Of a stretch of DNA of 32,832 nucleotides, positions 5,341 to 22,711 are shown one piece after another; position 1 is the stretch's first letter, and each line of letters opens with the position of its first letter. The stretch covers positions 1-32,832 of the forward strand of contig VXZK01000358.1 in the NCBI GenBank assembly GCA_009845545.1. Reading direction: 5' to 3'. The position numbers and the translations under genes were made by a program. This DNA comes from Candidatus Poribacteria bacterium (lineage in GTDB: Bacteria; Poribacteria; WGA-4E; WGA-3G). Below the pieces are notes generated by a model, which was not told where the DNA came from, ran no database searches, and worked only from the letters and a program-made list of their open reading frames with translations.

Positions 5341-6453
5341 TTAGGATTCTTCGTCGTCATGCCGGCCGAGCAATTTGCCCCAAAAGCCGTGTTCATGGTG
5401 GTAAGATTCACCGCGGAGTTTTGCGAATTCCTCTAATTTCCTTCGCTGTTCCTCATTCAACTGTTTTGGGGTCTCAATTTCCATTTCAACAACCAAGTCG
5501 CCTGAATAAGAGCGTCTGTAATGGGGTACCCCTTTATTCGGGATACGCAGGCGTGCCCCGTATTGTGTGCCGGGCGGAATATTGAGTTCTTCGCGTCCAT
5601 GAACGCCTTGAACTTCGATTTTTCCACCGAGTGCGGCTTGGACGAACGAAATTTTGGCGGATGTAATGAGATCGTTTCGGTCGCGTTCAAAACGTTCATG
5701 GGGTGCGACCTTGATCACAACAAATAGGTCGCCCGGAGGTGCGCCGTTGGTTCCCGCTTCACCTTCACCGGTTAATCGGTATTTAAAACCGGTATCAACG
5801 CCTTTATCCACATTAAACTTAATCTCCTGTGTATTTCGGACGAGACCTTTTCCGGTACAGGATGGACAGGGTTCTTGAATGATTTCACCTTCGCCGCGGC
5901 ATTGCGGGCAGGTCCGGGACATTGTAAAGAAGCCTTGGGATTGGCTGACTTGACCTCTGCCGTAGCATTGCGGACACGTTATCACTTGCGTCCCTTTCTT
6001 TGCGCCGCTGCCGCTGCATTCGGGGCAGGTTTCAACGCGAGGCACCTGAATTGTGGTCTCTTTGCCGTGGATAATATCTTCGAGGGTTACTTCAAGGTTG
6101 TATTGTAAGCTGCGTCCGCGTTGTGGTCCACGTTGCCTGCCACCGAGTCCGCCGAAGATGTCTCCAAAGACATCGCTGAAAATATCGTCTAAATTCACAC
6201 CGAACCCGCCAAAATCGCTGCCCATGCCCTCGAGTCCGGCATGACCGAATCTATCGTACTGTTGCCGTTTCTCAGTGTTGCGCAGGACCTCATAAGCCTC
6301 TGTAGCTTCCTTAAATTTATCTTCGGCTTCTTTATCGTCAGGGTTTTTATCTGGATGAAATTGGATGGCAAGTTTGCGATAAGCCTTTTTTATTTCGTCT
6401 GCGTCGGCATCGCGATTGACATCCAACACCTCATAGTAGTCGCGTTTTTGCAT
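5341..6453 (-). CDS. dnaJ: chaperone protein DnaJ
   Basis: J domain with HPD ([15 protein letters not shown]), G/F region, four CxxCxGxG-type zinc motifs. Confidence 0.98.
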
Positions 6454-6474: not shown

Positions 6475-7320
6475 TTATTCAGCAGCATCAGTTTCCTCCG
6501 TATCATCTGCGGTATCATTTGATGTTTCTTCTTCTTTCGCCGGTCCCTGTGAAACGACTACTTGCGAGGCGCGTAGCACACGGGTATGTAACATATAACC
6601 ACGCCGGAATTCCTCAATCACTTTTCCGTCTGGCACGTCATCCGATGGGGTAACAAGGAGTGCCTCATGCTGATTTGGATCAAATGTTTCACCAACCGCT
6701 ACGATTGGTGCCAATCCGTGGGTTTTGAGCGCATCCAATAACTGTTTGTGAACCAGTTGTACACCCTCATTAAAGGTTGTGAACGCTGGCGTGCTTTCTT
6801 CAACTTTCTCAGTTACACTTTTAATAGCGGCTTCCAAACTATCCAGCACCGGTACCATTCCCTCAAGGATGCCTTCGTTAGCGAACTTGAGTTGCCGCTG
6901 ATAATCGGTTTGTAAGCGTTTTTTAGTGTTCTCAGCTTCCGCTGCTGTACGTAGGAGGCGATCGCGTTCCGCTTTATATTCTTGATGAACTGCTTGCACA
7001 GCAGTCTCTACCTCTTTATCAATCTCTGCCTGCAATAGTTCTTCACGTTCTGTTTCGTATTGATCACGCACGCGTTGGACAATCGCCTCTACCTCATCCT
7101 TAACCTGCGATGTAAGGTTGGTAGCAGTTTCTTCTACCGGAGAAATCCGTTCTTCGATCTCTTGTTTGACTTCTGATTTGATAGTATCAAGAGCCACCTC
7201 CGCGATTTCCCGCATGCGGGTGACAAGCGTTTTTTCTTGCCCCTCTTTATTGTCGGCGGAATCGTTATCTGAAGATTCTTCTACTTCTGCTTCTATTTTT
7301 ATTTTTTTAACTTCAGCCAT
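6475..7320 (-). CDS. grpE: GrpE nucleotide exchange factor with long N-terminal coiled-coil extension
   Basis: ENTKKRLQTDYQRQLKFANEGILEGMVPVLDSLEAAI ... GVQLVHKQLLDALKTHGLAPI ... FDPNQHEALL ... EFRRGYMLHTRVLRASQVVVSQG. Confidence 0.93.
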   Translation of the reverse strand: MAEVKKIKIEAEVEESSDNDSADNKEGQEKTLVTRMREIAEVALDTIKSEVKQEIEERISPVEETATNLTSQVKDEVEAIVQRVRDQYETEREELLQAEIDKEVETAVQAVHQEYKAERDRLLRTAAEAENTKKRLQTDYQRQLKFANEGILEGMVPVLDSLEAAIKSVTEKVEESTPAFTTFNEGVQLVHKQLLDALKTHGLAPIVAVGETFDPNQHEALLVTPSDDVPDGKVIEEFRRGYMLHTRVLRASQVVVSQGPAKEEETSNDTADDTEETDAAE

Positions 7321-7378: not shown

Positions 7379-8125
7379 TTAAGCGTGAATAGCGTTGGCG
7401 AAATCTTTCATTAATTCAAAGGAGCCATTTTTTTCGAGCACATTGCCTGTGACGATGAAATCGGCACCTGCTTTCACTTTTTCTGCAGCGATTTTCGGTG
7501 TACGAATGCCGCCACCGACGATTAATGGAATGCTGATTTGGTTTTTCACAGCGGAGATCATCTGGTCAGGTACAGGCTGCGCTGCCCCGCTGCCTGCCTC
7601 TAAATATACCATTTGCATGCCGAGATATTCCGCAGCCAACGCGTGTGGTCCCGCGATATCCGGCTTATCGCGTGGAATAGGTGCCGTCCCGCTCATAAAT
7701 TCGACAGCGGTTCTGTTGCCACCCTCAATAAGCATATAACCGGTCGGGATAGGTTTAAGGGCATAGCGCTGTATCCACGGTGCTGCCTTAACTTGTTCGC
7801 CAATGAGATAGTTCGGGTTGCGTCCACTAATCAGACTGATATAGAGAATAGCGTCTGCATGTGGTGTAAGATGCATTGAATCACCCGGGAAAAGCACGAT
7901 AGGGAGTTCCGTCTCCTGCTTGAGTGCTTTCGCAATTGGATGCAAATCGTTTGTTAAAAAGCTGCCGCCTAACAAGATAGCATCTGCGCCAGCCTGCTCG
8001 ACCGCCACTGCGAGTTTGGCACATTTATCGACTTCGCACTGCTCCGGATCGATTAAAACAAAATAACCAGCGTTATGCTTTTTTAGCACCACATTGAAGT
8101 AGTCGAGAACCGAATTTGATCTCAA
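7379..8125 (-). CDS. geranylgeranylglyceryl phosphate synthase (GGGPS/PcrB family)
   Basis: FVLIDPEQ, AILLGGS, LFPGDSMHLTPHADAILYISLISGRNPNYLIGEQV, MVYLEAGSGAAQPVP, IVGGGIRTPKIAAEKVKAGADFIVTGNVLEKN. Apparent TTG start at 8125. Confidence 0.9.
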   Translation of the reverse strand: MRSNSVLDYFNVVLKKHNAGYFVLIDPEQCEVDKCAKLAVAVEQAGADAILLGGSFLTNDLHPIAKALKQETELPIVLFPGDSMHLTPHADAILYISLISGRNPNYLIGEQVKAAPWIQRYALKPIPTGYMLIEGGNRTAVEFMSGTAPIPRDKPDIAGPHALAAEYLGMQMVYLEAGSGAAQPVPDQMISAVKNQISIPLIVGGGIRTPKIAAEKVKAGADFIVTGNVLEKNGSFELMKDFANAIHA

Positions 8126-8238
8126 ATGCGATGTGTCCTTTTCATCTAATCGTTAAATTTTGGCTTGCAAACTGGGATTTTTTAGAGATTTGCGCGCCGC
8201 CTACTCTTTTAGAATTGTACCATATTTTCGGCGATTTG

Positions 8239-9456
8239 TCAAATGCTACACTGTCGCGCCACCTCATAGAGCAGAACACCTGCTGCGACTCCTACATTGA
8301 GCGATGATTGTCCAGATGCCATCGGAATACGGACGAGTTCTGTACAGGACGCTCGCGTTTCAGGAGACAATCCCATATTCTCATTGCCAACAACAACAGC
8401 GGTAGGCAGCGAGAATTTCGTGGTGTATAACTCTTTTTCTGCATTGGATGTTCCGCCTAATACACTCCAGCCTGATAGACGTAGTGTCTCAATCGCGGCA
8501 CCGATATCTGTTGCATAGTACAACGGTAAACGTCCAACCGCGCCTCGTGACGCACGCACACAGTTTTTATGAAACGGACTCGCGCCTATATGACTCAGCA
8601 GGACGGCGGATACTCCGACTGCATCTGCTGTCCGCAATGTCATACCCAAATTGTCTGGGTTTACGATGTTCTCAGCGATGAGTATTGTACATCCGGGACT
8701 AAAGTGAAAATTGGGTTGACCGGATTCTGACAAAAAGTGCCGAAAGTTAAAGTATACCGATGCTATAACTGGTGGTACCGGGCGGTTTGTAGTGACTGAA
8801 CCCATCACACCATGGTTAACTTGGTAACAGGAAATATTATCGGCAGATGCTCGCTTTAAGAGACTTTGCCCTTCCGATGTTTCAAAGAGGGCAGTGGTAT
8901 AAAGGATTCTCTCAATAGGGAGTCCGTCTCTAATTGCCCGTTCTACCATCAGATCTCCTTCGACAACAAATTGCGAATATTCAAGTTTGCCCTTCAAGGT
9001 GGCTAATTTACGCATATCTGCGGCAACTGCATCTTTGCGTTTAGAAATAGTTCGCTGCTCTACTACAGCACTTCCGCGTTTAATACCGCGATAAAATCTT
9101 CCATCATCTGTATGAACAAATTCACCTTCTAAGACATCGTGTATTCCGTTGTCCATCCACTTTTCTGTTAGGTGGAACATTCCGGAGCATCGTCTTGGAA
9201 AAGCCAAGAGCAGTTCTCTCAGACTTCGCTCGGTCATGGCAGTAAGATAGACTTGATAATCAGTATCAAAGGTGGCCCCTTGTGTCATTAGTAAGACTCC
9301 ATCGAACTTCTGCCAACCTGCGGTAAGCACCTGATAATTTTGGTGCCATTCACCTGTCTTAGAAAAGGTGTGGTACGCCTGTTTAAAGTGAGAGACGACC
9401 GTAGCATCGGGATTTTCTTTTTCTAAGAAAGCAATGACTTCATCGTAGTTTATCAT
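8239..9456 (-). CDS. TrmH/SpoU family RNA 2'-O-methyltransferase with extra N-terminal domain of about 150 aa
   Basis: C-terminal SPOUT motifs: ENIVNPDNLGMTLRTADAVGVSAVLL, VVGNENMGLSPETRASCTELVRIPMASGQSSLNVGVAAGVLLYE. ATG at 9456 overlaps the UbiA stop (ATGA). Confidence 0.9.
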   Translation of the reverse strand: MINYDEVIAFLEKENPDATVVSHFKQAYHTFSKTGEWHQNYQVLTAGWQKFDGVLLMTQGATFDTDYQVYLTAMTERSLRELLLAFPRRCSGMFHLTEKWMDNGIHDVLEGEFVHTDDGRFYRGIKRGSAVVEQRTISKRKDAVAADMRKLATLKGKLEYSQFVVEGDLMVERAIRDGLPIERILYTTALFETSEGQSLLKRASADNISCYQVNHGVMGSVTTNRPVPPVIASVYFNFRHFLSESGQPNFHFSPGCTILIAENIVNPDNLGMTLRTADAVGVSAVLLSHIGASPFHKNCVRASRGAVGRLPLYYATDIGAAIETLRLSGWSVLGGTSNAEKELYTTKFSLPTAVVVGNENMGLSPETRASCTELVRIPMASGQSSLNVGVAAGVLLYEVARQCSI

Positions 9457-10301
9457 AGAAAGGTTCCGAGATAGATTGCACCGAGTCCGACGAATATATC
9501 CCACTTCATCCAGCGTTGGATGGCGGTACAACTCTCTTTGGAAGCATCACGTAACAGGCGGATAGCACATCCGATCAGGACCAAATCGACACCGAGTACA
9601 ACTGCCAACAGATAATGCCATGAATACCCGCTAAAAAGGTAGGGGATAGGACTGAATAGAATAACCAACCCCATGAAACCGATAGCTGTCTTTACAGCGA
9701 GTTGTGGGTTGAGAATGGCGAGTGTTTTCACACTGTTTTTCAAGTCGCCTTCTGTATCTTCAAGGTCTTTGATAATTTCTCGCGCTGTTGTGAACAGGAA
9801 CGCAAAGATTGCTGGAATCAGTGTGCCTTGCACCGAATCTATCGCGATGCCGCCAGAGATAAAGGTTAAACCGGTTAAACTGCTCACGACTAAATTGCCG
9901 ACAAATGGTATACGTTTCAGCCAGCGTGCGTAAGTCGCGAGTGCGGCGAATACGAGAATTGCAATCGCTGTTGCGTTTCTATTAATAAGTGTCCCCAAAT
10001 AGATACCGATAGCAACAAGAATCACCGCAAAAATCAGTGCATCTACGCGCCGAATGCGTCCAGAAGGTAGCGGTCGTCGTGGTCGATTAATTTGGTCAAT
10101 GTTATAATCGGAATAATCGTTTATGGCGTTCCCAGCAGAAAGCATGATGAATGCGGCGATAGAAACCAACCAAAGCCGAATGTCAACAAGATTTTGGATG
10201 GTGTCTTGGCTGGCGAACATCCCACCGAGCCATGCGGAGATAAAAGCGATAATTCCGTTAAGAGGGCGCGTCAGTTCAAGATATGCGAACAGCGTTTTCA
10301 T
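9453..10301 (-). CDS. UbiA-family prenyltransferase, (S)-2,3-di-O-geranylgeranylglyceryl phosphate synthase-like
   Basis: LTRPLNGIIAFISAWLGG, NAINDYSDYNIDQINRPRRPLPSGRI, FLFTTAREIIKDLEDTEGD. Start ATG 10301 (MKTLFAYLELTRPLN). Confidence 0.85.
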   Translation of the reverse strand: MKTLFAYLELTRPLNGIIAFISAWLGGMFASQDTIQNLVDIRLWLVSIAAFIMLSAGNAINDYSDYNIDQINRPRRPLPSGRIRRVDALIFAVILVAIGIYLGTLINRNATAIAILVFAALATYARWLKRIPFVGNLVVSSLTGLTFISGGIAIDSVQGTLIPAIFAFLFTTAREIIKDLEDTEGDLKNSVKTLAILNPQLAVKTAIGFMGLVILFSPIPYLFSGYSWHYLLAVVLGVDLVLIGCAIRLLRDASKESCTAIQRWMKWDIFVGLGAIYLGTFL

Positions 10302-10467: not shown

Positions 10468-11514
10468 CTATGATTCATCCTCTAACTCTTGAAGCTTTGC
10501 TTCGAGTTCTTCCATGCGTTTCTGGAGTTTTGCGAATTCAGGGAGCAGTTCTGGGAGTTTTCGGGTTGCGGCGTGAATTCGTAATTCCTGCTTATGCGGG
10601 CGCGCTGGAAATCCGGAGAGGTGACTTCCGGCAGGCATATCTTTTGTAACCGCGGATTTCGCGTAAACGACGCTGTCATCCCCAAGCGTTAGATGTCCTG
10701 CAGCCCCGCCGTGTCCTGCGATATTGACTCGATTGCCGAGCGTGGTACTTCCAGCGATACCAACTTGTGCGGCGAGGCAGCAATCTTCGCCGATCACAAC
10801 GTTGTGCGCGATTTGGACAAGATTATCCAACTTCGTGCCACGTTTGATGAGTGTTTCCGAAAGCGTTGCCCGATCAATGGTCGTATTAGCACCAATTTCG
10901 ACATCATCTTCAATAACGACAGTCCCAATCTGCGGAATCTTGTGGTGTCGGTTGCTGACCGGCGCGAATCCGAAACCGTCACTTCCAATAACAGCGCCAC
11001 AGTGGATAATCACTCGGTCTCCAATTGTGACTTCCTCTCGGATATTCACGTGTGGATAGATAAGCCCATCAGCCCCGATTTTAGAGCCTTCACCGATATA
11101 GACGAAAGGTTGAATGACGGTGTCATTGCCAATTTCAACGTTGTCAGCGATGTAAGTAAACGCTTGAATTGAGACGCGCTCACCGAGTTTGACGTTCTTA
11201 CCTAAAATTGCTGTTTCATCAACCCCTGGAAATGCGCGATGGTTTTTGTCCCATGAGAACATCTCCAAAACTTTAACGAAAGCCCAATAAGGATTATCAA
11301 CGCGAATCGTCGGCTTTCCATTGCCAGAGACACCGCGCCCAATAATGATAGCCGCGGCTTGGGTTGTCGCGATAGCGGCGAGATACTTCGGATTAGCAAC
11401 AAAGGTAATCTGAGTCGGGAGCGCCTCGTTGATTCCAGAAACTCCTGTAATTTCAATCTCACCATCGCCAGAAAGATCTCCATTGAGGTGTTCACAAATT
11501 TCTTTGAGTTTCAT
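10468..11514 (-). CDS. lpxD: UDP-3-O-acylglucosamine N-acyltransferase
   Basis: Left-handed beta-helix hexapeptides; VIIHCGAVIGSDGFGFAP, QIGTVVIEDDVEIGANTTIDRATL, LDNLVQIAHNVVIGEDC, GFPARPHKQEL. Confidence 0.96.
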   Translation of the reverse strand: MKLKEICEHLNGDLSGDGEIEITGVSGINEALPTQITFVANPKYLAAIATTQAAAIIIGRGVSGNGKPTIRVDNPYWAFVKVLEMFSWDKNHRAFPGVDETAILGKNVKLGERVSIQAFTYIADNVEIGNDTVIQPFVYIGEGSKIGADGLIYPHVNIREEVTIGDRVIIHCGAVIGSDGFGFAPVSNRHHKIPQIGTVVIEDDVEIGANTTIDRATLSETLIKRGTKLDNLVQIAHNVVIGEDCCLAAQVGIAGSTTLGNRVNIAGHGGAAGHLTLGDDSVVYAKSAVTKDMPAGSHLSGFPARPHKQELRIHAATRKLPELLPEFAKLQKRMEELEAKLQELEDES

Positions 11515-11594: not shown

Positions 11595-12149
11595 TTATTC
11601 AGGATTTTCGCCATTTTCATTCATCAAGTCGGTTAACCGCTTTGTTAGATCGTATTTCTCTTTGACATAAAGCGTGATGAGCCGTTTTTCGAGAATGATG
11701 TCATAGTTGTCGTCTTTACCGACTTTGATAATTAGGTCTTCAAGACTTTTGTAAATCGGTTCGAGCAATTCCCGCTCTTTTTCAATGAGTGCTTGCTGAC
11801 CCACTTCTCGTTCGCGTTGGTATTCCTGCTGTTTCTGGAGGATTTCGTTGTTCAAATCCGCAGTTTGTGCTTCTTCAACGAAGAGTTCCGTTTTGGTTTT
11901 CTTCTCTTGCAGCGTAAGGATTTCTTGGCCTATTTTTTCCAATTTTTTCTGGAGTTTTTCGCCTGCTGCTCTGAGCGTTTCGGTCGCCTTCGTCGCTGCT
12001 GCGGATCCTTTTAGGACCTCTTCTGTGTTCACGACCCCGAATTTGAAGGCTTCCTGTCCAATACTTCCGGAACTGAAACAGAAAGCGACGGCAGAAATAA
12101 TTAAGAGAGTTAAGCGTGCTTCAGAAGCACCCAACCGAAATGATTTCAT
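11595..12149 (-). CDS. OmpH/Skp family periplasmic chaperone
   Basis: Signal-like N-terminus, FGVVNTEEVL, long coiled coil, IYKSLEDLIIKVGKDDNYDIILEKR; sits between bamA and lpxD. Confidence 0.88.
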   Translation of the reverse strand: MKSFRLGASEARLTLLIISAVAFCFSSGSIGQEAFKFGVVNTEEVLKGSAAATKATETLRAAGEKLQKKLEKIGQEILTLQEKKTKTELFVEEAQTADLNNEILQKQQEYQREREVGQQALIEKERELLEPIYKSLEDLIIKVGKDDNYDIILEKRLITLYVKEKYDLTKRLTDLMNENGENPE

Positions 12150-12312: not shown

Positions 12313-14802
12313 TTAGAACCCGGGGCCAACCGTGAAATGGAATCTGCCTGCGGGTTCACCGCTAAGGCGATCTAAACCGTATCCCCAACCTAACCGGGCT
12401 AACATGCCGAACATGTTAAGTCGAGCTTCAACGCCGAGTCCTTTTTTCATGTTAATTTGACTAAACGGATTTGGAACACTTTCATCCCATACTTGTCCTA
12501 TATCGAAAAATAGGGCTGCTGTAAGCTGCTGTGAAACCGGAATCCGATACTCAAGGTTCGCGAAGAAGACTTTATCACCGCCGTAAGGATTATAGGTTTT
12601 TGAACCGTCAGGAGGGTCAGGGTAAATTTCATAGTCTTCATAGCCGCGAACGGTATCTACGCCGCCGAGGAAAAAGCGTTCATAAAACAAGAAGTAGGAA
12701 TCAGTGCTTTTACTGACCATGTAGCCAGCGCGTGCGTGTACAGCGATGACATGGTTCCACCAGCCGCTATAGAACCAGCTGGTATCTGCGGAGTATTTCT
12801 GGAACTCATTATCTGCGCCTAAGATTCCGCCGGAGTATTCATAAGAAATCGTATGGGATGCGCCGCCTGTCGGATCATACAAAGAGGTTCGATAGTCTCG
12901 GGTATCTCTACCAACGGCAAAGAGGATACTCCGCGTAGAGCGATTAATCAATTCGGCATCGGGGTTATGCGCTTCAACATGTTCATTGCGAAGCCGGACG
13001 GACAGATCAATATCGTAGGCGATTGGACGACCGAGTGTTACGGATGCGCCGCGTCGTCCCCAAACGTATCTATCGTATCGATAATTAGGATTTGCTCGGT
13101 TATATAAAGCGCCGACGGTTCCGTAATAGCGTCGGAAACGTCGATTATCGTAGATGCGGGCGTTAAGTCGGGTGGGTGTTCCAAACACCCAAGGCGTTCC
13201 AAAACTGAGTTCGGCTGTATGATGGTCCCGCGTGCCTAATTCACCTTTTAGATGGACGCGATAGGCGCGTCCGAGGAGGTTGTTTTGTCCGACCTCAGCG
13301 GTGCCAAAGATTCCGCCCTCACTTCCGTACCCGCCTCCGAGGCTCAGCATTCCGGTTTGCGGTGTTTCAGCGATATTAACTCTTAAATCCTTTCGATTCT
13401 CTTCGGCAGTATCGCTGGGAACAAAGTCAACAGCCCGGATGAAAGACCCCATCTGGAACAGACGCTGCCGTGCTTTACGCAAGGCTTTCACGTCTAAGAG
13501 CTCATCGGACTCAATATCCAAAAAATCCAATTCACGTTTAACGACGTGCTCATTCGTTTTTTCGAGTCCGGTGATAATCACCTTCCCGATAATTATGACA
13601 TCCCCTTCGTTGATTCTCAAGGTAATATCAACGACGCCATCCGCCTCATTGAAGAAGGGAGTCGGTACAACTTCTGAGAGCAAATAACCTTTATCGAGAT
13701 ACGCCTGCTGCAATTTCGCGATGGATTCATCGAAGTTTCCGCGGTTGAATACCTCACCTTCAGCGGGGTCAAGCATTCTACGTATCTTTTTTTCCGAAAA
13801 CAGGTTTTTGGCACCGGCTTGCACTTCAAGCGTATAGGTGCCGATGATAAATTCGGGACCTTCGTCAACAGTGATGTCAAGCATCATACCGGTTTTGTCC
13901 TCTGTGAACCGTTTTTCGTAACCGAGTACTTTTACCTGTGCAAATCCTCTGTCCTGATAGTAGTTGCGGAGGTTTAGGGACAGATCTTCTTCCTCAAACA
14001 AAATCTGGTCAAATGGTTTACCGGTGCGAGTTTTGAGTTTCTTCTGTAGTGTCTTCTCGGAAACCAGTTCGTTTCCGATAAAATTGATCTCCTCAATTCG
14101 CACTCTCGGTCCTTCATTTATCTCAAACGTGACTTGAACAGTATTCGCCTCTGTATCATCTGTAGGACTGCTCTTATCAAGATGCGTCTGTATACCGATA
14201 AGATAATATCCTTTTTCATGGTACAGATTTTTGAGTGCTCGCTCACTTTCCCATCGCCGCCGGTCGCTGAAAATCTCATCGGGACGGAGCGTTATCTCGT
14301 TTTTCAGCTTACCCGTGTCCAAATTATCGTTTCCGATAAAGTTGATGCCAGAAATCTTAGGATTCTCAACGACCTTATATATGATTTCAAGCCCGCCACC
14401 GTCGAAGGGTTGGGTATCTACTTGGACTTCGGCAAAGAACCCTGTGTCTTTAAAAAGGCTTTTCAGGTCTTGCGTAAGGAATTCAGGTGAAACTTCATCA
14501 CCGATTTGTGTTTGAATGAGTGTACGCAACATAGCTTCAGAACCAGTCTTTACCCCTTGAAAAGAAATTTGCTTCACAATGAACATCGGGTCAACCCCGG
14601 ATTTCGCGGTATCTGCGGTGTTTTCTTTGTCCATCTCGGTAGATGGAGCTGCCTTGGGATCACCGTCCGTATCTATCTGTTTTTCTAGAGTTGGCACTTC
14701 AGGCCCAAACACTACATCCGCCTGTTCTTCGGCAACAGCAGTGGTTGCAGCAAGTCCGCCGATTAGACTGATTAAAATCAGGATGTTTTTTATTGCCTTC
14801 AT
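12313..14802 (-). CDS. bamA: outer membrane protein assembly factor BamA
   Basis: Serial POTRA-like domains, then an Omp85 barrel: FFLGGVDTVRGYEDYEIYP, VFFANLEYRIPV, FFDIGQVWD, terminal FHFTVGPGF. Start ATG 14802 followed by a signal peptide. Confidence 0.95.
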   Translation of the reverse strand: MKAIKNILILISLIGGLAATTAVAEEQADVVFGPEVPTLEKQIDTDGDPKAAPSTEMDKENTADTAKSGVDPMFIVKQISFQGVKTGSEAMLRTLIQTQIGDEVSPEFLTQDLKSLFKDTGFFAEVQVDTQPFDGGGLEIIYKVVENPKISGINFIGNDNLDTGKLKNEITLRPDEIFSDRRRWESERALKNLYHEKGYYLIGIQTHLDKSSPTDDTEANTVQVTFEINEGPRVRIEEINFIGNELVSEKTLQKKLKTRTGKPFDQILFEEEDLSLNLRNYYQDRGFAQVKVLGYEKRFTEDKTGMMLDITVDEGPEFIIGTYTLEVQAGAKNLFSEKKIRRMLDPAEGEVFNRGNFDESIAKLQQAYLDKGYLLSEVVPTPFFNEADGVVDITLRINEGDVIIIGKVIITGLEKTNEHVVKRELDFLDIESDELLDVKALRKARQRLFQMGSFIRAVDFVPSDTAEENRKDLRVNIAETPQTGMLSLGGGYGSEGGIFGTAEVGQNNLLGRAYRVHLKGELGTRDHHTAELSFGTPWVFGTPTRLNARIYDNRRFRRYYGTVGALYNRANPNYRYDRYVWGRRGASVTLGRPIAYDIDLSVRLRNEHVEAHNPDAELINRSTRSILFAVGRDTRDYRTSLYDPTGGASHTISYEYSGGILGADNEFQKYSADTSWFYSGWWNHVIAVHARAGYMVSKSTDSYFLFYERFFLGGVDTVRGYEDYEIYPDPPDGSKTYNPYGGDKVFFANLEYRIPVSQQLTAALFFDIGQVWDESVPNPFSQINMKKGLGVEARLNMFGMLARLGWGYGLDRLSGEPAGRFHFTVGPGF

Positions 14803-14855
14803 AATGAAATTTCCTCCTATGTACCGCGGGTTTTCCGCCACCTATGTGCCGGTAT

Positions 14856-18333: not shown

Positions 18334-18364
18334 AACCCCCTAAATCCCCTTATCAGGGGGACTT
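18334..18364. repeat. second copy of dispersed repeat AACCCCCTAAATCCCCTTATCAGGGGGACTT
   Basis: One C shorter than the copy at 2656-2687; reaches the first base of the GNAT stop codon (18364-18366). Confidence 0.7.
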
Positions 18365-18915
18365 TAAGGCAGTGAATCATAGTCTGATTTTAGCATCCCG
18401 TATCCGCTTGAATCTTCAAAGTTATCCCATTTCTTTGTATGTTGTCGGCGGCACCCTTCATAGCGCATCCCGACTTTTTCCAGCACCCGCCCAGATGCTG
18501 GATTTCGCGTGAAGTGATAAGCGTAGATTCGGTTCAACTTCAACACTTCAAAACTGTAAGCAACAACAGCGCGTGCTGCCTCTGTCGCATACCCATGGTT
18601 CCAATAAGGTTTCCCGATCCAATAACCGAGCTCAGCTCTCTCGTTTTCTTGCTCGAGTTCAAGTCCTATAGTCCCGATTAAGTTTCTGTCTGTTCTCAAC
18701 GTAATTGCGAAATTGATTGCTTCGTCTTTTCTATACGTGTCAGCACAGAAGCGAATCCATTCTTCCGCCATACCATCTTCATAAGGGTGCGGAATGCGGA
18801 GGACCATTAAAGCTACATCACGTTCACCTGCAAGGTGTTGCACATCTTGCGCGTCCTCAAGTGTGAGTGAGCGCAGTATCAGTCTCTCTGTCTGTAGTGT
18901 TGGCGCGGTTTTCAT
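18364..18915 (-). CDS. GNAT family N-acetyltransferase (RimJ/RimL-like)
   Basis: LQTERLILRSLTLEDAQDVQHL, ELGYWIGKPYWNHGYATEAARAVVAYSFEVLKLNRIYAYHFTRNPASGRVLEKVGMRYEG. Confidence 0.92.
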   Translation of the reverse strand: MKTAPTLQTERLILRSLTLEDAQDVQHLAGERDVALMVLRIPHPYEDGMAEEWIRFCADTYRKDEAINFAITLRTDRNLIGTIGLELEQENERAELGYWIGKPYWNHGYATEAARAVVAYSFEVLKLNRIYAYHFTRNPASGRVLEKVGMRYEGCRRQHTKKWDNFEDSSGYGMLKSDYDSLP

Positions 18916-19460
18916 TTTTCTCCAAACTCACTCTTTAGCATCCCGTATCCGATTAAATCCTCAAAGTTATCCCATTTTCTTATATGTTGTCGGTGACATA
19001 TTTCGTAGCGCATCCCGATTTTTTCCAGCACGCGTCCGGAAGCAGGGTTTCTTTTAAAATGTTTAGCATGAATTCGGTTTAATTTCAACACTTCAAAACT
19101 ATACGCAACAACAGCCTTTGTTGCCTCTGTGGCATAACCGCAGCCCCAATAAGGTTTCCCGATCCAGTAACCGAGTTCACCGTTCTCGTTCTCTGAATCG
19201 AGTCTAAGTTCTATACCGCCGATTAAGTTTTTGTCTATTTTGAGCGTGATTGCGAAGTTCAGTGCCTCGTCTTTTTCAAACTTACCGGAACAAGCATGCA
19301 TCCATTCCTCCGCCATCCCGTCTTCATAAGGGTGCGGCATATTCGTTAATGTTGATGCGACATCGCGATCACCTGCAAGGCATTGGACATCAGCCGCGTC
19401 TTGAAGCGTAAACGATCGAAGTATCAATCTTTCTGTAAGCAACGGTGGTGCTGTCCTCAT
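18912..19460 (-). CDS. GNAT family N-acetyltransferase (RimJ/RimL-like), paralogue
   Basis: LLTERLILRSFTLQDAADVQCLAGDRDVAS, ELGYWIGKPYWGCGYATEATKAVVAYSFEVLKLNRIHAKHFKRNPASGRVLEKIGMRYE. Confidence 0.92.
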   Translation of the reverse strand: MRTAPPLLTERLILRSFTLQDAADVQCLAGDRDVASTLTNMPHPYEDGMAEEWMHACSGKFEKDEALNFAITLKIDKNLIGGIELRLDSENENGELGYWIGKPYWGCGYATEATKAVVAYSFEVLKLNRIHAKHFKRNPASGRVLEKIGMRYEICHRQHIRKWDNFEDLIGYGMLKSEFGEK

Positions 19461-19987
19461 TTTTCTGCAAACTCACTCTTTAGGATCCTGTAACGAATCA
19501 TATCGTCTTCGGACAAATCATAAGCGTAATGCATCCCAATTTTTTGCATCACGCGTCCAGAGGCAGGATTTCGTTTAGAATAATCGGCGTAAATCAGATC
19601 AATATCGTGTTCACGAAATCCATAAGCGACCATAGCCTTTGCCGCCTCGGTGGCATATCCACAATTCCAATAGGGTTTTCCAATCCAATAGCCAAGTGAT
19701 GCATCATTATAAGGCAGGTGGTTCCGAAATGCTAATCCAACCATCCCAATCAACGTTCCGTTTGTCCTAAGTGTAATTGCGTAGTTCGCTATTGTCCCTT
19801 TTTCAAATTCTTTGTGACACCATTGAATCCACTCTTCTGCTGTCTCATCTTCACAAGGTTGTTCCATCACATCGGTTGTTGATGCCACATCGGGATGGCT
19901 GGTAAGGCGTTGTACATCGGCGGCATCTTCAAGCGTAAATGAACGGAGTCTCAAGCGTTCTGTGCGAAGTGTCGGCGCGGTTTTCAT
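19457..19987 (-). CDS. GNAT family N-acetyltransferase (RimJ/RimL-like), paralogue
   Basis: LRTERLRLRSFTLEDAADVQRLTSHPDVAST, SLGYWIGKPYWNCGYATEAAKAMVAYGFREHDIDLIYADYSKRNPASGRVMQKIGMHY. Confidence 0.92.
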   Translation of the reverse strand: MKTAPTLRTERLRLRSFTLEDAADVQRLTSHPDVASTTDVMEQPCEDETAEEWIQWCHKEFEKGTIANYAITLRTNGTLIGMVGLAFRNHLPYNDASLGYWIGKPYWNCGYATEAAKAMVAYGFREHDIDLIYADYSKRNPASGRVMQKIGMHYAYDLSEDDMIRYRILKSEFAEK

Positions 19988-21606: not shown

Positions 21607-22711
21607 TTATTTTTCCTGTGCCTTCATTTTAAGATAACTCTCAATGAACGCGTCTAACGCACCATCTAACACGGCACTGACGTTTCCAGTTTCGACATTC
21701 GTGCGCAAATCCTTGACGCGTTGGTAAGGGTGCATCACATACGACCGGATTTGACTACCAAAGTTGATTTCTAAACGTTCACTCCGCTGCTTGGCAAGTT
21801 CTGCTTCCCGTTCAGCCCGATATTTTTCGTGCAGGCGTGACCGGAGCAGCTTCATAGCGATTTCGCGGTTCTTGTGCTGAGAACGCTCATTCTGACACTG
21901 AACAATAATCCCCGTCGGTTTATGTGTAATCCGAATCGCTGAGTCTGTGACATTGACATGTTGTCCGCCGGCACCGCTGGCTCGATAGGTATCTATGCGC
22001 AGGTCTTCTGCTTGAATGTCCACTTCCACTGCGTCGTCGATTTCGGGGGTAACGTCAACAGCGGCAAAAGAGGTATGTCGTCGCTTGTTAAAATCGTAAG
22101 GAGATAGACGGACGAGTCTATGTACACCCATTTCAGCCTGGAGGTAACCGTAAGCGGAGGGGCCTGTAACAAGAATCGTTGTTCCTTTGATGCCTGCTTC
22201 GTCTCCGACAGTGATGTCCACAATTTGGGTTTGATAGCCTCGTGTGTCGCACCAACGGAGGTACATCCGCATTAACATCCCCGCCCAATCTTGTGCGTCA
22301 ATCCCACCTGCCCCGGAATGGATATTGAGGATGGCGTTATTCTCATCAAATTCACCATTCAACATTAACTGGAGTTCCATCTGTTCAAGGCGACTGGTGA
22401 CACTCTCCAATCCATCTCCAATTTCCGCCTGTAAACTTGTATCGTTCTCTTCGATTGCGAGTTCAATGAGCGTCTGGATGTCTTGAATCTTGAGGTTCAG
22501 TTCCTCGTATTTGCTAACCTCATCTCGGAGGACTGCGATACGTTGATTGATTTTTTGAACGCGTTGTGTATTGCTCCAAAAGTCTGGAGCGATAGTTGCC
22601 GCCTCAAGTTCTGTTAATTCTTTTCGTTTTGTAGCGAGGTCAAAGATAACCTCCGAGTTCTAAGAGACGGGTCTGCATCTCTTCAGTTTTATTTTTTAGA
22701 TCTATAAGCAT
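21607..22711 (-). CDS. prfB: peptide chain release factor 2, with programmed +1 frameshift
   Basis: RF2 motifs IHSGAGGIDAQDWA and YRASGAGGQHVNVTDSAIRITHKPTGI. First frame ATG 22711: MLIDLKNKTEEMQTRLLELGGYL then TGA (22642-22640); +1 shift resumes as DLATKRKELTELEAATIAPDFW. Confidence 0.95.
22639..22657 (-). promoter_or_regulatory. prfB: prfB programmed frameshift site
   Basis: Minus strand GGAGGTTATCTTTGAC: internal SD-like GGAGG, then CTT TGA C, matching the known RF2 autoregulatory site layout. Confidence 0.9.

Follow-up and report, generated by a model that had tools for sequence, protein, structure and literature searches.

Archaea join lipid tails to glycerol with two enzymes, the geranylgeranylglyceryl phosphate synthase (GGGPS), which makes the first prenyl-ether bond, and the digeranylgeranylglyceryl phosphate synthase (DGGGPS), a member of the UbiA superfamily, which makes the second. 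Solved examples are the GGGPS of M. thermautotrophicus (4mm1) and of Flavobacterium (4jej), and the DGGGPS of M. jannaschii (MjDGGGPS, 6m31). The closest bacterial system is the GGGPS–DGGGPS pair of Ca. Cloacimonetes and the FCB group (Villanueva et al., PMC7852524), in which the two genes are co-localized in a bacterium with lipid A. The Cloacimonetes orthologs make unsaturated archaetidylglycerol when expressed in E. coli, whereas their G1P source is unresolved, and co-localization in bacteria was reported as seemingly restricted to Cloacimonetes. Firmicutes also encode a protein of the PcrB family, but it is a heptaprenylglyceryl phosphate synthase. Here we describe a GGGPS–DGGGPS gene pair in Candidatus Poribacteria, located among outer-membrane genes, and a third archaeal-type lipid enzyme, a geranylgeranyl reductase (GGR), which is encoded by relatives and is predicted to use selenocysteine at its active site in one clade.

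The analyzed window is a stretch of 32,832 nucleotides (contig VXZK01000358.1, assembly GCA_009845545.1) from a genome, hereafter G000, of 5.57 Mb, 94% complete with 2% contamination; its relatives are numbered G001 onward, and numbers beginning with L denote loci extracted from these genomes. The original prediction was that this window encodes a PcrB/GGGPS-family protein and a UbiA prenyltransferase, separated only by a SpoU methyltransferase and just downstream of bamA-ompH-lpxD. This observation is confirmed, both genes lying, like their neighbors, on the minus strand, where grpE, dnaJ, and prmA follow GGGPS. The UbiA stop and the SpoU start overlap (ATGA, 9456-9453). Rfam and tRNA scans of the window found nothing.

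Table. Features of the window and of loci in G000 and its relatives.
Location	Strand	Feature	Observation
Window 5341..6453	-	dnaJ, downstream neighbor; syntenic context	TIGR02349, 426 bits, over cut-off
Window 6475..7320	-	grpE, downstream neighbor; syntenic context	PF01025, 6.6e-43
Window 7379..8125	-	GGGPS, 248 aa, TTG start	PF01884 (PcrB), 1.1e-46; TIGR01769 (GGGP equivalog), 229 bits, cut-off 161.6
Window 8239..9456	-	SpoU-family RNA 2'-O-methyltransferase; conserved bystander	PF00588, 1.8e-33
Window 9453..10301	-	DGGGPS, UbiA superfamily, 282 aa	PF01040 (UbiA), 7e-42; NDYSDYNIDQINRPRRPLPSG and REIIKDLEDTEGD
Window 10468..11514	-	lpxD (lipid A synthesis), upstream neighbor; syntenic context	TIGR01853, 375 bits, over cut-off
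Window 11595..12149	-	ompH/skp-like; syntenic context	PF03938, 4.4e-24
Window 12313..14841	-	bamA; syntenic context	TIGR03303, 414 bits, over cut-off
Window 18364-19987	-	Three similar GNAT-like acetyltransferase genes	In tandem
Window 22640-22660	-	prfB, classical RF2 programmed frameshift signal	GGAGG then CTTTGAC; the listed ORF 21607-22410 starts inside the gene
L058:9127-10164 (G000 contig C123)		EgsA-like (G1P dehydrogenase-like) protein	Next to an M19 dipeptidase gene; widespread in the genus
L300:9817-9910 (G000 contig C278)		tRNA-Sec	Beside selB
L045:4005-6700 (G044)		2-oxoacid:ferredoxin oxidoreductase-like gene pair	Directly upstream of UbiA-GGR-GGGPS
L056:4283-8909		Polysaccharide deacetylase, second UbiA, CehA/McbA-type or similar-sized protein, GT2	Between lpxD and DGGGPS
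L212:295-3844		Polysaccharide deacetylase, second UbiA, CehA/McbA-type or similar-sized protein	Between lpxD and DGGGPS

The GGGPS protein passes the curated GGGP equivalog cut-off, while it scores only 31 bits on the heptaprenyl model NF003197, whose cut-off is 260. Its best solved relatives are 4mm1 and 4jej, and the heptaprenyl enzymes 4nae/4naf are matched at 29 bits only, which rules out a Firmicute-type PcrB. For the UbiA protein, NCBIfam ranks archaeal DGGGPS-type models first, although below their own cut-offs (PRK12882, 210 vs. 296 bits; PRK12883, 183 vs. 353), which belong to narrow equivalog models. UbiA superfamily functions are hard to assign from one sequence. In a maximum-likelihood tree of 94 UbiA proteins from archaea, FCB bacteria, Chloroflexota, Gemmatimonadota, and Poribacteria, the window protein falls in a well-supported clade of 23 members (100/92) along with MjDGGGPS, methanogen proteins, and the FCB proteins, whereas the MqnP-like and CyoE proteins of the same genome, which cover menaquinone-type and heme-O prenyltransfer, lie elsewhere. 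In agreement with this grouping, the best PDB sequence is 6m31 (137 bits, against 30 for chlorophyll synthase), which is also the best fold match of the AlphaFold2 model (pLDDT 91). The two Asp-rich motifs of the superfamily, NDYSDYNIDQINRP and REIIKDLEDTEGD, are present, with N58, N61, D62, D65, D69, R174, E175, K178, D179, D182, and D186 invariant in alignment A3. Grouping with quinone or chlorophyll enzymes, which had been set beforehand as a condition that would refute the DGGGPS assignment, was thus not observed.

The same gene order occurs in relatives, including genomes assembled in one or a few contigs (G005, G010, G017, G021, and G028), which excludes chance adjacency or misassembly. 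Among 60 relatives, both genes are present in 50 and absent in 8, not counting a paralog at about 30% identity and a 31% stretch in G058. The two remaining genomes are incomplete assemblies: GGGPS alone occurs in G048, in which the contig ends before the expected UbiA, and UbiA alone in G058, which is 64% complete. Among the absences, G032 and G035 also lack lpxD and may be assembly gaps; co-absence in these two genomes and in G068 was not counted as loss, because lpxD is missing too. In contrast, G041, G043, G045, G046, and G047 keep lpxD but lack the pair and the archaeal-type GGR, while their congener G044 has all three. In G080, the locus reads lpxD, SpoU, grpE; both UbiA and GGGPS are gone from the locus although SpoU, which lies between them, stays, suggesting two separate losses. 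On the other hand, G072 has UbiA and no GGGPS, and is a counter-example. Overall, GGGPS is found in 73 of 85 genomes of the phylum, and the pair is nearly always kept or lost together.

A search with TIGR02032 revealed an archaeal-type GGR (217-238 bits in these genomes, cut-off 158.8) encoded between UbiA and GGGPS in G036-G040, G042, G044, G049, and G052-G054, and in the phylum-level relative G060. This component had been missed by the original prediction. It is present in 25 of 85 genomes, all of which except G058 also have GGGPS, and its best solved relative is the T. acidophilum digeranylgeranylglycerophospholipid reductase (3oz2, 288 bits). The ferredoxin oxidoreductase-like pair of G044 is possibly a source of reductant for this enzyme. 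The clusters of G052 and G060, class- and phylum-level relatives, also hold a PgaB-like polysaccharide deacetylase, a second UbiA enzyme, and a large protein (CehA/McbA-type in G052) between lpxD and DGGGPS, and that of G052 an HpnI-like GT2 as well, forming a possible wider glycolipid cluster. In the window's family, the GGR, where present, lies outside the operon, and it is mostly lost; none was found in G000. Pairs of these genes also lie side by side in a Chloroflexota contig of only 4.6 kb (GGR-GGGPS) and in Latescibacterota and Zixibacteria contigs (GGR-DGGGPS).

In 15 Poribacteria, the GGR gene has an in-frame TGA at codon 46, where the seven Cys-type poribacterial copies read, as well as the homologs read from archaea and other bacteria, have Cys. 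Because one of the two scan patterns required this Cys, the sample from outside the phylum is biased, although the other pattern did not require it. The cysteine is described as conserved in all archaeal GGRs and essential in the S. acidocaldarius enzyme (PMC10821996). Thirteen copies (L123, L124, L128-L130, L132-L135, and L156-L159) have no other stop, whereas that of G018 (L127) has an extra TAG and that of G070 (L210) appears frameshifted; these two, in the window's family, look like decaying copies and fit an ongoing loss. Just downstream of the TGA lies a SECIS-like hairpin of 5-7 bp (e.g., GCACAG-AGGCU-CUGUGC, with paired changes such as GUGCAG/CUGCAC), with a mean z of −2.77 against synonymous-codon shuffles in the 15 TGA genes and −0.21 in 24 Cys genes. 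SelB passes its cut-off in 53 of 60 genomes, including nine of the ten TGA-GGR genomes of that set (among those of family f1, only G018 and G025 were covered); it is not over the cut-off in G042, which is 80% complete, nor in G051, which has the Cys form. tRNA-Sec lies beside selB in all loci checked, including G000, in which other selenoproteins are therefore expected since it lacks the Sec-type GGR. We rejected the possibility that the TGA is a plain stop, the mark of a pseudogene, or a genetic-code change, because evolution beyond it is strongly purifying (dN/dS 0.03-0.07 where it can be estimated), because it always stands at the Cys site, and because TGA also ends some of the same genes (L130 and L133). 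The Sec forms are one clade (100/98) nested in Cys forms. A 2026 review table of 119 prokaryotic selenoprotein families lists no GGR (PMC13188914), and literature searches joining selenoprotein or selenocysteine with geranylgeranyl (reductase) gave nothing relevant. We thus regard as highly likely, although it remains a computational prediction that concerns relatives of the window's operon, that in a clade of Poribacteria Sec replaces the catalytic Cys near the flavin. It would be a new selenoprotein family and, as far as we know, the first selenoenzyme of membrane ether-lipid synthesis, having arisen once from a Cys form and having later been moved out of the operon and mostly lost in the window's own family.

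The source of G1P is unproven. The EgsA-like protein of G000 matches the EgsA model best but far below the cut-off (133 vs. 413 bits), and its distribution is independent of the pair: it is present in G032 and G035 without the pair and absent in G002, G003, G012, G018, G025, and G027 with it. A second EgsA-like family, in order-level relatives, also occurs in genomes lacking the pair. A role of the EgsA-like gene as a dedicated G1P source is thus not supported.

Taken together, these data best fit a model, to which we give a probability of roughly 0.77, in which the window encodes a true GGGPS and a true DGGGPS that would successively attach two geranylgeranyl chains to glycerol phosphate to make the archaeol precursor DGGGP, beside an ordinary bacterial lipid A and lipoprotein system. 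Family identity, phylum-wide synteny, and near-perfect co-occurrence are established here by sequence, tree, and fold comparisons, whereas catalysis, G1P stereochemistry, and the entry of the product into the membrane are inferred. In this view, the pair is the remnant of an ancestral poribacterial operon (lpxD, polysaccharide deacetylase, second UbiA, DGGGPS, GGR, GGGPS); the GGR would saturate the chains in relatives, and the window host, having no archaeal-type GGR, would make an unsaturated core or use another reductase. The interpretation first proposed, that the host may make archaeal-like or mixed ether lipids and that the physical link to outer-membrane biogenesis genes is of particular interest, is therefore supported only in part: both proteins are archaeal-type ether-bond enzymes, but production of the lipid remains an inference, and the link to outer-membrane genes is a real and conserved synteny for which we found nothing that makes it functional.

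Among alternative scenarios, the one that survives best, although it seems unlikely, is that the two enzymes make an isoprenoid glycerol ether that is not a bulk membrane phospholipid but an anchor for a surface glycan or another minor lipid. The deacetylase, second UbiA, and GT2 genes of class- and phylum-level relatives, and the location of the locus among lpxD and bamA, are in line with it, but those genes are absent from the window locus, in which 167 bases separate lpxD from UbiA, and the GGR and the Cloacimonetes expression result fit a phospholipid core (PMC7852524). Very unlikely is that the enzymes run in reverse or act in salvage of archaeal lipids from the surroundings, an idea raised for FCB bacteria (PMC6431249) and compatible with the lack of a firm G1PDH; the clustering with a biosynthetic GGR and the synthesis of the lipid by Cloacimonetes orthologs in E. 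coli (PMC7852524) argue against it. Finally, a UbiA protein of the MenA/MqnP, CyoE, or ChlG type, incidentally adjacent to GGGPS, can be practically dismissed, despite the scores below the DGGGPS cut-offs, given the tree, the PDB ranking, the fold, the paralogs, and the co-loss with GGGPS.

These results extend co-localized archaeal lipid genes in bacteria to a whole further phylum, with near-perfect co-inheritance inside a conserved outer-membrane and chaperone gene block, and thus give many genomes, some in single contigs, in which a natural mixed membrane can be looked for; lineages that lost the genes (genus g5) give natural controls for lipidomics. The linked Sec-type reductase would be a chemically informative variant of an enzyme whose essential cysteine is poorly understood. 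Compared with the Firmicute heptaprenylglyceryl phosphate synthase, the window GGGPS shares the Pfam family PcrB but only very low scores. Compared with MjDGGGPS and the M. thermautotrophicus GGGPS, the motifs are conserved, but the window proteins belong to the bacterial branch of each family and the host makes lipid A. The GGR of relatives resembles the archaeal reductases 3oz2 and 3atq in fold (TM 0.91 and 0.82), FAD motif, and Cys position, but differs in the 15 Poribacteria in which the Cys codon is TGA followed by a SECIS-like hairpin. Finally, the poribacterial pair belongs to the FCB-type archaeal lipid pathway, sharing with that of Cloacimonetes the two families, their co-localization in a bacterium with lipid A, a DGGGPS in one clade with FCB proteins, and the absence of a clear G1PDH, while it differs by the phylum, by its neighbors (bamA-ompH-lpxD upstream, grpE-dnaJ downstream), by a SpoU gene between the two, and by the GGR inside the operon in relatives, so that the remark that co-localization seems restricted to Cloacimonetes does not hold for Poribacteria.
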